Assembly: GCA_030685015.1 (NCBI GenBank)
Contig: JAUXWS010000044.1
Span: forward strand, 1-51,380
DNA length: 51,380 nucleotides
Direction of reading: 5' to 3'
From: a bacterium
Lineage (GTDB): Bacteria > CAIWAD01
How positions within the stretch are numbered: position 1 is the stretch's first letter; every line of letters begins with the position of its first letter. The notes beneath the pieces are model-generated. The model searched no databases, had not been told where the DNA came from, and was given only the letters and a program-made list of their open reading frames with translations. Positions 34,990-40,817 of the stretch are shown in pieces. The position numbers and the translations under genes were made by a program.

Positions 34990-37053
34990 TCACCTCAGCA
35001 GCAAGAGTTTCCGCACCCGGCTGTCGCCCGCCGCACTCAGGCGCAACAGGTAGGCGCCGGAGGCCAGACCGTCCGCCTCGAGGCGCAGCTCGTGGCGCCC
35101 CGGTCCGGTGAAGCCATCGACCAGGACGCGCACCAGGCGGCCCCTCACGTCAAAGAGTTCCAGGCGGGCCTGACCAGCCAAGGGCATCGTCCAGGCGATG
35201 GTGGTCGCCGGGTTGAAGGGATTCGGCCAAACTGGCCGCAGATCCAGGGAGATGGGACGTGGTGCCGGCGTCAGTCCGGTGTCCTCCGCCCATCCAACGA
35301 CGCGCAGATCATCGAGATACCAGCCCTCCCGGTTGCTGCCGCTGTCGCTGCCAAAGCGGAAACGCAGCCGGACCGTGCTCCCGGCCCAGGCGCCCAGGTC
35401 GAAGTTTGCCTCGCTCCAATCGGCGCTGCCGCTGAAGCAGGGCGTGCCAGCGGGGAAAGGATGGGTGGTGGGCTCTCCCGCCGCCGTCAGATGGCGGAAA
35501 TGGTGGGGGTAACCGCCCTCCGGCTCGACCTGCGTCCAGATGTCGCCACCGTCCGTGCTCAACTCCACCACGCCCCCATCGTAGGCCGAGTCGGGGTGGG
35601 CCACCGATGTCTCCGCATCCATGCGGTGCTGGAAGCTGAGGCGCGACCAGGGCCGCAGCAGGAGTTCGGGGCTGAGAAGGCGCGCGTCCAGATTGGTCCG
35701 GTAATCCCCGTTCTCGGTGCTGCCGCACTTCCAGGAGTGGCTGGGGCTGGCCGCGTCCTCCGTGCTCAGATGCCAGTCGTCCTGCCAACCGGCGGCTGCC
35801 CCGTGCCACCATCCCTCCGTTTCTCCCTCCAGGTCCGTCTCGAGGAGGGTCTCACGTGCGCCGACCGGCAAGGTGAATTCCAGGCTGACGGGACCCTGGG
35901 CCGTGGTCAGCGCCAGATTGAAGCGCTCATCAAAGAGAGGCGGGGCCGCCGCGGCGATGGAGCATGAGAAGGGCGTTTCCGCCACCGGGACCGCACTCTC
36001 ACCTGGAGCCAAATCCGGCCAATCGGCCGTGTCGATCTCCATTTCCGTCCAGGCGCTGGCTGGTGAAAGCAATCCTTGGATTTGAGTCACCGGCAGCAAG
36101 CCCGTGTTGTGCAGGCTGAGACCCAGCACGATGAACTCCCCGGCTTCCGCCACGCCGTCCCCGTCCCCGTCCATGAACAGGTCGATCCCCTCCAACACCA
36201 GGCTGGGCGATTGAACAGCCAGCAACAGCTCCGCATCCAGGTCCAGCTCCCCCGCCGAGCTGGACACGTGCAGGAGCAGCTCCGCAACCTGATCATCCGG
36301 CAGGCTGGGATCCACGACCAGGGCATAGGGCGACTGACAGGTGCCCGTGCTTCCAGGGGGCAGCATGTCCCAGGTACTCTGGGCCTCGACCAGTTGCAGC
36401 CACGGGGAGCTTGACGCGAGGATCCCCGAGATGCCCGAGATCCACGTGCCTCCCGTGTTGTGCAAGGAGATGGAAAGCGTCACCTGCTCCCCGCCTTCCG
36501 CCAGACCGTCGCCATCGTCGTCCGACAGCACGGCGAGGCCCGCCACCGCCAGGGGTGGATCCGGGGGAGCCCCTTCCTCCGTCACCAGGGTGAGGGCCGT
36601 GGTCTGACCATTGGCGCTGCTGCCCTGATAAGCGCCGATGTAGAGGCGCGCCGTCCCCGCGCCCGCCGCGGGGGCGGTCCAGACGAAACTGGCCGAGTTC
36701 TGGCCGTTGGTGGAAAGATGGATGCCGTTGGTCTCGCCCGGCACATTGTAGGTGCTGGTGCCCTGGCCGCCGCTGAGCACGCCGGCGTTGCTGCTGCCCG
36801 CGCCCAGCCGGCAACTGCCGTTGAAACTGCGGATGCTGTTCCCGCTGGAGCGCGCGATGGTGACGGTGTATGGCGTGCCCGGCGTGTAGAGGGTCGGGAA
36901 ACCGCTGACCGTCACCGTTCCATTGGAGCCGCCGTGGCAGGAGCTGGCACAGGTCTGGCGGCCAGGGGCCCCCGAATAGCCCGTGTAATTGGGGTAGCCC
37001 TCCGCCAGGCGGACAAGACCTGCGAACAACAACAGGACCATCAATCTCATCAT
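34990..37053 (-). CDS. secreted choice-of-anchor V (Reeler-like) protein with a CxxxCH site and sorting domain
   Basis: The start at MMRLMVLLLFAG has GGGAGG four bases upstream. After the signal peptide the mature protein begins YPNYTGYSGAPGRQTCASSC and then H, a CxxxCH site near residues 35-40 where related proteins usually have CxxCH. A Reeler/choice-of-anchor V domain follows (FNGSCRLG, NGIHLSTNGQNSASFVWTAP). Two CARDB-like domains come next (DGDGLAEGGEQVTLSISLHN and DGDGVAEAGEFIVLGLSLHN), then a choice-of-anchor J domain (GWWHGAAAGWQDDWHLSTED), and the module from PNPFNPATT to VRKLLLLR. The role is unknown. It starts the leftward end of a secreted-protein block. Confidence 0.87.
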   Translation of the reverse strand: MMRLMVLLLFAGLVRLAEGYPNYTGYSGAPGRQTCASSCHGGSNGTVTVSGFPTLYTPGTPYTVTIARSSGNSIRSFNGSCRLGAGSSNAGVLSGGQGTSTYNVPGETNGIHLSTNGQNSASFVWTAPAAGAGTARLYIGAYQGSSANGQTTALTLVTEEGAPPDPPLAVAGLAVLSDDDGDGLAEGGEQVTLSISLHNTGGTWISGISGILASSSPWLQLVEAQSTWDMLPPGSTGTCQSPYALVVDPSLPDDQVAELLLHVSSSAGELDLDAELLLAVQSPSLVLEGIDLFMDGDGDGVAEAGEFIVLGLSLHNTGLLPVTQIQGLLSPASAWTEMEIDTADWPDLAPGESAVPVAETPFSCSIAAAAPPLFDERFNLALTTAQGPVSLEFTLPVGARETLLETDLEGETEGWWHGAAAGWQDDWHLSTEDAASPSHSWKCGSTENGDYRTNLDARLLSPELLLRPWSRLSFQHRMDAETSVAHPDSAYDGGVVELSTDGGDIWTQVEPEGGYPHHFRHLTAAGEPTTHPFPAGTPCFSGSADWSEANFDLGAWAGSTVRLRFRFGSDSGSNREGWYLDDLRVVGWAEDTGLTPAPRPISLDLRPVWPNPFNPATTIAWTMPLAGQARLELFDVRGRLVRVLVDGFTGPGRHELRLEADGLASGAYLLRLSAAGDSRVRKLLLLR

Positions 37054-37167
37054 CGCGCCTCCCTCCCATCCTTCCTCTGCCTTGCTGCGGACCTGCTGTG
37101 GGAGTTGGTGTCTGGCATCACGCCTGACACCAACCAAGGCGTGCAGATGGATCCACGCAGCGCTGGC

Positions 37168-38874
37168 TCAGCGCAGCAGCAGCACCTTCAGGTTGTTCGT
37201 CCCGCGGGCCGTCTCAAGTCGCAGGAGATAGAGGCCACCGGCCAGCCGGGCGCCGTCCAGCGTCAGCTCATGGCGTCCCACGGCGTGGCTGCCATCCGCC
37301 AACACCGCCACGCGGCGCCCCGCCAGATCAAAGAGGGCCAAGCGGACCGGCCCCGCCTCCGCCAGCTCGAAGGCGACACGCGCCGTGGGATTGAAGGGGT
37401 TGGGCCAAGCCTCCAGCAGCGCCAGGCTGCCAGGCCGCGGGGCGGGATCCGTCAGCGCCGTGTCCTCGGTGGGCGCCGCCAGGACCAGATCGTCGATGTA
37501 CCAGCCTTCCAGGGCGCCTCCGTTGTCGCTGCCGAAATGGAACGCCAAGCGCACCGTCAGCCCGTTGAAGTCCGCCAGGTCGAAGACGGCCTCCTCCCAG
37601 GAGAAGCTGCCGCTGTAGCAGGGCGTCTGCCCGGGGAAATTGTGGCTGGCCGGATTGCCGCCGCCGGAGAGCGCGCGGAAGGCCTTGTTGTACCCGGTCA
37701 ATGGAAGCAGCTGCGACCAGGTGGCGCCGTCGTCCAGGCTGATCTCCACCGTGCCGCCGTCGTAGGCGGAGTCGGGGAAGGTGCTGGAGATCTCCGCGTC
37801 CATGCGGTGCTGGAAGGTCAGGCGGCTCCAGGGCTGCAGCTCCAGCGGCGGGCCGACCAGGCGGCAGTCCACGTGGTTGCCGTAGGTGCCCGTCGAGGCG
37901 CTACCGGCCTTCCAGGCGTGGCTCGGACTATGGCTGTCCTCCGTGCTCAGGTGCCACACGTCGGTCCAGCCCGCCGTGGCGGCATGGCTCCAGTCCCCCG
38001 TGGCGGACTCGCAATCCAGGTCCCAATAGGGCTCGCGACGCCCCACCTCAAGGCTGAACTCCTGCACGGCGTTGCCCCGGTCGGTGCTGATCATGAGCCG
38101 GAATGGCAGGTCCATCGCCGCTGGTGCGCCCGCATCAAGATGGAAGACGAAGGGCGCCGCGCCGCCCTCCGTGGCGCCGGCCGTGAAATCCGGCCAGGCG
38201 ATCTCGTCCTGGCTGAAACTGACCCACTCGGACGTGCTGGTCAGCTGGACCGAGACCTCGCCCACGGCCAGCTCCGAGCGGTTCTCCAACAGCACGTCCA
38301 GCTCGATCGTCTCGCCCGGTTCGGGCACGCCGTCGCCGTCACTGTCGGCCACGAGACTCATGTCGTGGAAGTAGAGGCCGGTGGGATTGGCCCAGGTCGC
38401 GATCGTCTCGTGCATCTGCTGGCCGAAGGCGTCGCTCCATCCCACCCAGTTGCCGCGCACGATGCCCAGGGGATCCAGGATGACCGAGTGCGGGATGTAG
38501 CCCTCGCCCCAGGTCTGGAGCAACCCGCCACACATGGTGAGGATGGGGAAGGTGGGGCCGTACTGCGACCAATGGGCGATGAGCGCGGCGGCCGAGGCGT
38601 TGTCCGTGTCGATGTGGACCAGGCTGAAGATCTCAGGATCGTAGACGGCCTGGAAGTCGGTTTGAAGGTGCGGAAACTCCGTGTTGCAGGCCGGTCACCA
38701 CGTGGCGCCGAAGTTCACCAGGACCACCTTGCCCCGCTGGGCATGGAGGTTCCAGGTGTTGCCATCCGTGTCCGTGCAACTGAAATCGGGGGGCGTCGTG
38801 CCCACGGCGTGCGTGGCCAGGGCCGGGCCGGCGCAGGCCAGCGCCAGCAACAGGTGGGGGAACAGTCCGGGCAT
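37168..38874 (-). CDS. exported thioredoxin-like protein with sorting domain, candidate selenoprotein (TGA at 38695-38697)
   Basis: Read through one TGA, this frame encodes 568 residues. It has a signal peptide (MPGLFPHLLLALACAGPALA), then a redoxin domain: PPDFSCTDTDGNTWNLHAQR, GKVVLVNFGATW, U60, PAC, NTEFPHLQTDF. The TGA stands at the first cysteine of the W-C-x-x-C motif. Next come FPILTMCGG, GYIPHSVILDPLGIVRGNW, a CARDB-like region, a choice-of-anchor J domain and the module ending NLKVLLLR. The next gene upstream is a paralogue of identical length with Ser60 and Cys63. No other stop interrupts the frame. GGAGG four bases upstream supports the ATG at 38874. As separate genes the two halves would be a 59-residue fragment and a protein lacking a signal peptide. 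The alternative is a nonsense mutation. Confidence 0.78.
38671..38694 (-). promoter_or_regulatory. bacterial SECIS-like hairpin after the thioredoxin-like TGA
   Basis: On the minus strand CGGA-GTT-TCCG (38681-38671) forms a 4-bp stem with a GUU loop, with 17 bases between the TGA and the loop. An outer stem, GGCCTG (38692-38687) with CAGGCC (38652-38647), could enclose it. The stem is short, so this is suggestive only. Confidence 0.4.
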
Positions 38875-38974
38875 GGGGCCTCCGTTGGATGTTGGGGGAC
38901 GAGGGGTGGGGCGGACACCGACCCACCCGCCCCCGCGCTTCAAGGCATCATGTGTTGTCGCTCGCGACTCCTGG

Positions 38975-40681
38975 TCAGCGCACCAGCAGCAGCTTCAGGC
39001 TGCGCGTCCCGTGGGCCGACTCCAAGCTCAGCAGATAGATGCCGCCCGCCAGGGAAGCGGCATCCAGCGACAGCTCGTGGCGGCCGGCCGCCCGGACGCC
39101 CTCGGCCAGCACCCCCACCTGCCGTCCCGCCAGGTCGAAGAGCGCCAGCCGCACCAGGCCCGCCTCCCCCACCTCATAGGCGATGCGCGTCGTGGGATTG
39201 AAGGGGTTGGGCCAGGCCTCCAGCAGCGCCAGGCTGCGCGGCCGCGCCAGGGGGGCCAGGCCCGTGTCCTCGGTGGGGGCCGCCAGGACCAGATCGTCCA
39301 CGTACCAGCCTTCCTGGGAACCGCCGTTGTCGCTGCCGAAATGGAAGCCCAGGCGCACCGTCTCGCCATTGAACGCGGCCAGGTCGAAGACAGCCTCCTC
39401 CCACGGGAAATTGCCGCTGTAACAAGGCGTCTGTCCGGGGAAGTTGTGGCTGGCCGGATTGCCGCCGCCCGACTGGCCCCGGAAGGCCTTGTTGTACCCG
39501 GTCATGGGAAAGAGCTGGGTCCAGTTCGCCCCGTCGTCGAGGCTGATCTCCACCACTCCTCCGTCGTAGGCCGAGTCCGGGAAGGCGGCGGAGACCTCGG
39601 CGTCCATGCGGTGCCAGAAATGCAGGCGGCTCCAATTCTCCAAGGCCAGGGGCGGGCTGACCAGGCGGCAGTCCACGTGGTTGCCGTAGGTGCCCGTCGT
39701 GGCGCTGCCCGCTTTCCAGGCGTGGGTGGGGCTGTGGCTGAACTCCGTGCTCAGGTGCCACACGTCGTTCCAGCCCGCGGTGGCGGCGTGCGTCCAGCCC
39801 TCGCTGCCCTCTTCGCCGTTCATCGTCCAGTAGGCGACGCGCTGGCCCACTTCGATGGAGAAGCGGAGGACGGCCTCGCCCTGGTCGCAACTGACACTCA
39901 GCTCCAGGGGCAGGTCCATGGCCTCGGGCGCGCTCTCGGAGAGGGTGAGGGTGAAGGGCGCCGTGCCCAGCCCCGTCTGCCCGGGACTCATGTTCGGCCA
40001 GCCAATGACCCCCGGGGAGATGGTGACCCATTCCGAGGGGCTGTCCAAGGTGGCCGACACGTTGGTGGCGGCATTCAGGCCCATGTTCTCCAGCGTCACC
40101 GTGAGGCCCGCCACTTCACCCGGCTCGAAGACCTGGTCGGCGTCCCCCGAAGTGACGGTGACGGTGTGGCCCTGCACGTAGAGCCCGGTGGGGTTGATGT
40201 GGGCCAGGATTGTCTCGTGCATTCGGGGATAGAAGGGCTGGTAGAACCCGATCCAGTTGCCCCGCACGATGCCGATGGGATCCAGGACGACCGTGTGGGG
40301 GATGTACTCCTCACCCCAGTCCCCAAACAGCGTGCCACCCATGGTGAGGATGGGAAACTGGGGGTTGAAGAAGCCCCAGTAGGCGACCAGCTGCTGGGCC
40401 GTCTGGTTGGCCACGTCGATGTGGACCGCCGTGAAGACGGCCGGATCGTACCCGTCCACGAAATCCGGCTGGATGTGGGCGAAGGAGGAGTCGCAGGGCT
40501 GGGAGGCGGTCTGGCCGAAATTGATCATGACCACCTTGCCGCGCTGCCCGGCCAGCGACCAGGCGTTGCCCGCCGTGTCCGTCAAGGTGAAATCGGGCGG
40601 CTCATCCCCCACCGGGTAGGTGGCCAGGGCGGAAGCGGCGCAGCACAGCGCCAACAACAAGTACATCGGGCGTATCGACAT
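38975..40681 (-). CDS. exported thioredoxin-like protein with sorting domain (Ser/Cys paralogue)
   Basis: This 568-residue paralogue of the TGA-containing gene downstream has the same order: signal peptide (PMYLLLALCCAASALA), redoxin domain (PPDFTLTDTAGNAWSLAGQR, GKVVMINFGQTASQPC), IPHTVVLDPIGIVRGNW, two beta domains including choice-of-anchor J, and the module PNPFNPTTRIAYEVG to SLKLLLVR. The redox motif is S60-Q-P-C63, so only the second cysteine remains. It may therefore not act as a dithiol oxidoreductase. GGAGGTCCAC precedes the ATG at 40681. The two genes are about 100 bases apart and probably arose by tandem duplication. Confidence 0.9.
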   Translation of the reverse strand: MSIRPMYLLLALCCAASALATYPVGDEPPDFTLTDTAGNAWSLAGQRGKVVMINFGQTASQPCDSSFAHIQPDFVDGYDPAVFTAVHIDVANQTAQQLVAYWGFFNPQFPILTMGGTLFGDWGEEYIPHTVVLDPIGIVRGNWIGFYQPFYPRMHETILAHINPTGLYVQGHTVTVTSGDADQVFEPGEVAGLTVTLENMGLNAATNVSATLDSPSEWVTISPGVIGWPNMSPGQTGLGTAPFTLTLSESAPEAMDLPLELSVSCDQGEAVLRFSIEVGQRVAYWTMNGEEGSEGWTHAATAGWNDVWHLSTEFSHSPTHAWKAGSATTGTYGNHVDCRLVSPPLALENWSRLHFWHRMDAEVSAAFPDSAYDGGVVEISLDDGANWTQLFPMTGYNKAFRGQSGGGNPASHNFPGQTPCYSGNFPWEEAVFDLAAFNGETVRLGFHFGSDNGGSQEGWYVDDLVLAAPTEDTGLAPLARPRSLALLEAWPNPFNPTTRIAYEVGEAGLVRLALFDLAGRQVGVLAEGVRAAGRHELSLDAASLAGGIYLLSLESAHGTRSLKLLLVR

Positions 40682-40817
40682 GTGGACCTCCGGTGACGAT
40701 GCAGGTGAGCGGTCCGTGGACCGGCGTCGCGCCATGGCGGGCGACGCCGCAAAGGTGGTGTGCGGGCGGGACGGTCACAAGGGAAAAGTCAACGGGAGGG
40801 ACGGTCGTGATCCCTGG

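Follow-up and report, generated by a model that had tools for sequence, protein, structure and literature searches.

Organisation of the locus

The window, the whole stretch of 51,380 nucleotides that was analysed, comes from a Delongbacteria-like genome. A gene on its minus strand (37168-38874), preceded by a ribosome-binding-like GGAGG, runs from an ATG over 568 residues to a terminal TGA. The single other in-frame stop is the TGA of codon 60, and the genome search likewise counts one internal TGA in this gene. In the translated product this codon falls in the active site, W59-U60-P-A-C63, of a ResA/TlpA-like redoxin domain. The first-pass annotation had placed a TGA at 38695-38697 instead of the first cysteine of a WCxxC motif, in a frame otherwise open over 568 residues. 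Translation confirmed both points and supplied the strand (minus), which had been missing. The adjacent paralogue, described there as equally long and aligned without gaps at the site with S60-x-x-C63, does give 568 residues when read from its second ATG, with S60-Q-P-C63. The GUU-loop hairpin reported 17 bases after the TGA was also recovered, as CGGA-GUU-UCCG with its apical loop at 17 nt. The features of the locus are as follows.

37168-38874, minus strand: predicted exported redoxin selenoprotein gene, 568 codons, one in-frame TGA, ordinary TGA stop
38815-38874, minus strand: predicted signal peptide, residues 1-20, cleavage site between ALA and T (by inspection; hydrophobic N-terminus conserved in the family)
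38695-38697, minus strand: in-frame TGA at codon 60, very probably a selenocysteine codon (W-U-P-A-C), shared by 17 further homologues
38671-38681, minus strand: SECIS-like hairpin CGGA-GUU-UCCG; in the family its place and its loop are conserved, and its stem covaries
38395-38805, minus strand: ResA/TlpA-like redoxin domain, residues 24-160, with U60 and C63 (Pfam; for the most part with an AlphaFold2 pLDDT of about 80-93; PDB matches to ResA)
38041-38379, minus strand: beta-sandwich-like domain, residues 166-278 (AlphaFold2 strands, pLDDT mostly 65-92)
37465-38004, minus strand: MAM / choice-of-anchor-J-like region, residues about 291-470 (Pfam PF20773; NCBIfam NF038128 27.6, cut-off 30)
37183-37407, minus strand: C-terminal T9SS type A-like sorting domain, residues 490-564 (PF18962, TIGR04183; all-beta C-terminal region in the AlphaFold2 model)
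38975-40681, minus strand: upstream tandem paralogue, 568 aa, S60-Q-P-C63 for U60-P-A-C63, without the SECIS-like hairpin
34990-37053, minus strand: downstream gene sharing the beta/MAM/sorting-tail half, with another N-terminal domain and no redoxin

The three genes form a tandem array (34990-40735, minus strand) of predicted secreted proteins with a common beta/MAM/sorting-tail half. The product of the third member, 34990-37053, begins with TCASSCHGG, a C-x-x-x-C-H motif, which presumably resembles the CxxCH of choice-of-anchor V-type domains with one residue more. Ordinary annotation would split such selenoprotein genes at the UGA.

Active site and domain architecture

The Redoxin/AhpC-TSA match of Pfam covers residues 24-113, and the fold extends to about residue 160. 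ResA is among the best PDB matches (profile score of 76 bits to 4nmu; target-normalised TM-score of 0.88 on 4nmu chain D). AlphaFold2 predicts a Trx fold whose active-site helix carries U60 at its N-terminal end. Alignment, model and PDB comparison place U60 and C63 at the CxxC position of ResA, at the start of this helix, so that the redox pair of a Redoxin/AhpC-TSA fold stands where it is expected. The full-length model has a mean pLDDT of 62.9 and is confident only for the redoxin and the first beta domain. Further towards the C-terminus, Pfam finds an InhA-like MAM domain (PF20773) at residues 421-470. The protein begins with a signal-peptide-like stretch, MPGLFPHLLLALACAGPALA, recognised by inspection and from the family alignment.

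TGA at the same codon in homologues

Relatives were searched for cysteine or TGA at the active-site codon, as had been suggested initially. TGA was found at this codon in 17 further homologues, making 18 with the window gene, all of them U-x-x-C. Two of these are in the same genome as the window (G000, contig C59), ten are in five related genomes (two in G001, one in G002, three each in G003 and G004, one in G005) and five in four more distant genomes (one each in G080, G121 and G010, two in G222). The count of 18 refers to genes that were read through, and leaves out one in G004 (C95:11004) and TGA matches in G061, G105, G201, G297 and G330. The 17 other genes come mostly from independent assemblies. 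Thus, a UGA at the position of the catalytic cysteine recurs in homologues elsewhere, as is expected of a selenoprotein. A plasmid search returned only redoxins below 60% identity.

Decay of the downstream half had been named at the outset as an argument against a selenoprotein. No such decay is seen, and the half after the TGA is subject to purifying selection: dN/dS there ranges from 0.20 to 0.84 and is below 1 in every comparison with estimable dS, and for the post-TGA redoxin part it is about 0.20-0.24 (C59/C150/C146 orthologues).

Beyond the redoxin domain the family is variable. The MAM type is present in the window protein and, by similarity, in L060; other beta-rich regions follow in L055-L059, L061 and L063, and L195 carries an N-terminal extension before the redoxin domain. 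This variation indicates that the redox domain has been joined to several exported scaffolds. In L195 (G010:C141) the redoxin, with WUGPC, comes after a fibronectin-type-like N-terminal domain, and the domain order is reversed.

Export and the C-terminal sorting domain

The N-terminal signal peptide, identified by inspection, makes export of the protein nearly as certain as the recoding of its UGA. Por_Secre_tail (PF18962) matches residues 490-560 of the window protein with 23.2 bits against a cut-off of 27, and the T9SS sorting domain of NCBIfam (TIGR04183) scores 23.1 bits, barely over its cut-off of 23. Other UGA-containing members have tails well above the cut-off (L063, 43.0; L058, 35.1; L060, 33.4 bits), and these three pass both TIGR04183 and PF18962. 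Many proteins in the genome of the window bear the same sorting tail. The search for the secretion machinery covered three core components, SprA/Sov, PorU and PorV, and homologues of all three were found in this genome: two SprA/Sov matches in one frame of 2400 residues, PorU with 493 bits (cut-off 420) and several PorV-family proteins. Given these homologues, it is possible that the C-terminal tail functions as a T9SS signal. The FlgD/T9SS-like tail noted in the first-pass annotation has thereby gained support as a putative signal.

Reviews of T9SS assign the system to Bacteroidota, whereas these SprA, PorU and PorV-family homologues (G000:C102:30492-31718, C13:63978-67202, C68:16364-17494) belong to a Delongbacteria-like genome.

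A real selenoprotein could also stay in the periplasm, or be anchored to the inner face of the outer membrane, in which case the FlgD/Por-like tail would serve for folding or anchoring instead of T9SS sorting. The marginal scores of the window tail on PF18962 and TIGR04183 are in keeping with such a location, as are two UGA-containing members without a Por tail match (L055_4961, L059_1872) and the dockerin-like stretch at the C-terminus of L185. A known kind of electron supply serves periplasmic ResA-like enzymes. Against a periplasmic location stand the SprA, PorU and PorV homologues in the same genome, the abundance of tail-bearing proteins there and the clear tails of L063, L058 and L060. 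A periplasmic enzyme is thus rather unlikely, and is the strongest of the alternatives. With the machinery present, clear tails in three members and a marginal tail in the window protein, T9SS delivery of the selenoprotein to the cell surface or the medium is likely.

A hairpin follows the UGA

The hairpin of the window gene has a stem of 4 bp and the loop GUU; from the UGA it is 13 nt to the stem and 17 nt to the apical loop. The bacterial SECIS model, as set out in PMC13188914, places the loop 16-37 nt from the UGA and requires of a bSECIS a minimum free energy no higher than -7.5 kcal/mol. In 17 of the 18 UGA-containing members a hairpin is found whose loop lies 16 or 17 nt past the UGA and has a G as its first or second base. 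A check for a bacterial SECIS, proposed with the original observation, thus showed nearly the whole family to have a SECIS-like hairpin, suitably spaced from the UGA. The energy of the window hairpin is -3.3 kcal/mol in its short form (27 nt), -6.6 over 38 nt and -14.4 with a distal lower stem, in which GGCCUG pairs with CAGGCC. The short form misses the limit of -7.5 kcal/mol, while the other members pass it in their best context.

Taken alone, the window hairpin is no better than chance, since 46% of synonymous-codon shuffles fold equally well; its weight comes from the family. The stem covariation score is 0.200 against 0.094 +/- 0.021 for shuffled alignments, a score inflated by the relatedness of the sequences according to the tool's own warning; none of 500 shuffles was as high, and the true register exceeds all slid registers. 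Across the loop, the proline codon CCG occurs with NCG, CCT with GAG and CCA with GTG. Hairpins of the UGA-containing members are stronger than those of 81 Cys/Ser controls (p about 3e-4 for energy, 5e-5 for synonymous z); at the hairpin position, folding is poorer in the Ser paralogues and in the Cys relatives. The exact 11-nt core of the window hairpin is also present in L058 and in both L059 genes.

Five members, L061 and L062 (G004) and L185-L187 (G080, G222), have GGC as apical loop instead of GUU, with stems of up to 8 bp. This loop change accompanies EAP instead of EFP in the redoxin protein. No known SECIS family in Rfam gave a meaningful match to the UGA region. The 71 nt from the UGA, folded as one piece, were not better than shuffles (z -0.32), and no claim made here rests on that fold.

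Selenocysteine machinery

All four components, selA, selB, selC and selD, whose absence from the genome would speak against a selenoprotein, were found in the genome of the window. SelA (480 bits) and SelB (309 bits) are encoded side by side on contig C67. SelD (347 bits; G000:C37:12407-13327) has an in-frame UGA of its own (CSGGU). A tRNA-Sec with anticodon TCA (UCA) lies on C59. Among the tested TGA genomes, nine of ten have a tRNA-Sec(TCA), and in four control genomes lacking SelB none was found and nothing matched better than Ser or Leu tRNAs. Among the draft genomes, G001 gave no SelB, G004 none above cut-off and G002 no tRNA-Sec; in each of the three the other component is present. The presence of SelB is not discriminating, as it is over cut-off in 12 of 14 TGA genomes and in 10 of 14 non-TGA genomes.

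The UGA could be read through by other means, with Cys or Trp misinserted or termination leaky, or it could act as a regulated switch yielding mostly the short product. Under selenium shortage, bacteria can place another amino acid at a selenocysteine UGA or end translation there. Such readings are improbable here: UGA is a normal stop elsewhere (the gene itself ends in TGA), a dedicated tRNA-Sec(UCA), SelA, SelB and SelD are present, and the hairpin covaries. The gene could also be a pseudogene with a nonsense mutation, a reading already disfavoured when the site was first noticed, or the TGA could be an error of the assembly. Either would need one base change from TGC or TGT and would suit the weak hairpin of the window copy. 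Both are rejected as highly improbable: 17 homologous genes share the TGA codon, mostly in independent assemblies, the frame after it is intact and under purifying selection, and the selenocysteine machinery is complete. Recoding of the UGA to selenocysteine is, by genomic standards, close to certain.

Serine paralogues are nested within the selenocysteine group

A maximum-likelihood tree was built from 61 redoxin domains: 18 U, 3 C and 3 S in the selenocysteine group and 37 Cys proteins of TlpA/ResA type. The selenocysteine group stands apart from these 37 with support of 100/98; two of its three Cys rows are an identical sequence. The three SQPC proteins (the window neighbour; L064:5146-6843 in G001; L067 in G002) form one clade (100/100). 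Its sister is the selenocysteine protein of the window (98/91), inside the selenocysteine group. With the SQPC clade nested in this way, the serine is most simply explained by loss of selenocysteine before these species split. The alignment of the Ser paralogue with the window gene stands as first described, and its reading is amended: it is a derived copy that has lost selenocysteine. The Sec-to-Ser loss in these paralogues is kept under selection in three species.

In the redoxin part, the Sec and Ser proteins of the window share 53% identity, and the window Ser and G001 Ser proteins 62%. In the C-terminal part the figures are 68% and 61%. This points to gene conversion between the tandem Sec and Ser copies, or to an exchange of sequence between them, in the C-terminal half.

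Discussion

The gene product very probably carries selenium at its reactive site and is very probably exported from the cell, perhaps to the surface. In the proposed mechanism, SelB with Sec-tRNA(UCA) would bind the hairpin just past the UGA and insert selenocysteine at residue 60. The signal peptide would direct the protein through the Sec translocon to the periplasm, from where the C-terminal sorting domain would most likely take it to the SprA translocon and, with PorU/PorV, to the surface or the medium. The MAM-type and beta domains may present the enzyme or bind something outside. U60 would be the attacking residue of the redoxin domain and C63 the resolving one. By analogy with ResA, residue 60 may attack a disulfide, selenosulfide or peroxide, which C63 would resolve; selenocysteine at the attacking position points to a reaction of the reductase or peroxidase type. 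The protein may thus act on targets outside the cell or at its surface, as a selenol/thiol-disulfide oxidoreductase or as a reductase of peroxidase type. This explanation as a whole, with selenocysteine at residue 60, export, likely T9SS delivery and selenol/thiol-disulfide redox action, is held with considerable confidence on genomic grounds. For the family we somewhat favour a broader picture: selenoenzymes that the type IX secretion system carries across the outer membrane to work on the surface or outside, with tandem paralogues in a Delongbacteria-like lineage, selenocysteine relatives with other exported architectures in further lineages, and Sec-to-Ser copies alongside.

Most of the bacterial selenoproteins known are enzymes of the cytoplasm or periplasm, where electrons are readily supplied. 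If the proposed picture is true, selenium chemistry takes place on the cell surface of uncultured bacteria by means of large multidomain T9SS-tailed selenoproteins, which raises the question of how a surface selenoprotein stays reduced. The tandem Ser paralogues nested in the selenocysteine clade are natural counterparts against which the need for the selenol can be judged.

No T9SS selenoprotein cargo was found in the open-access literature, nor a description there of an exported or secreted bacterial selenoprotein of this kind or of selenocysteine in Delongbacteria; this agrees with the original suggestion that an exported selenoprotein with a sorting tail is an undescribed combination. A 'redoxin family protein' selenoprotein with UxxC (PF08534; HEU0032618.1 / MBA3499694.1) is listed in PMC13188914, and Prx-like and thiol-disulfide isomerase-like UxxC selenoproteins are listed in PMC13188914 and PMC9312934. 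These share the redoxin/Trx-like domain and the UxxC with the window protein, and the entries as listed describe no T9SS tail or multidomain architecture, a distinction drawn from descriptions and not from sequences. UxxC redoxin selenoproteins are thus already known; the multidomain family with T9SS-type tails seems, from the literature covered, to be undescribed. The ResA-like selenoprotein family NF041054 is also ResA-like, but its motif is WAxxUGC in place of WUxxC; membership of the window protein was rejected (23.6 bits against a cut-off of 300). The ResA/TlpA/DsbE oxidoreductases (PDB 4nmu, 1st9, 3c71) have the same exported thioredoxin fold with the active site at a helix start. The present proteins differ from them in having selenocysteine for the first cysteine, in their fused beta, MAM and sorting domains and in forming a clade separate from the sampled Cys proteins. 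T9SS cargo with a type A C-terminal domain (TIGR04183 / PF18962) likewise combines a signal peptide with a C-terminal beta-rich sorting domain, and homologues of its translocon, sortase and shuttle are encoded in the genome of the window.
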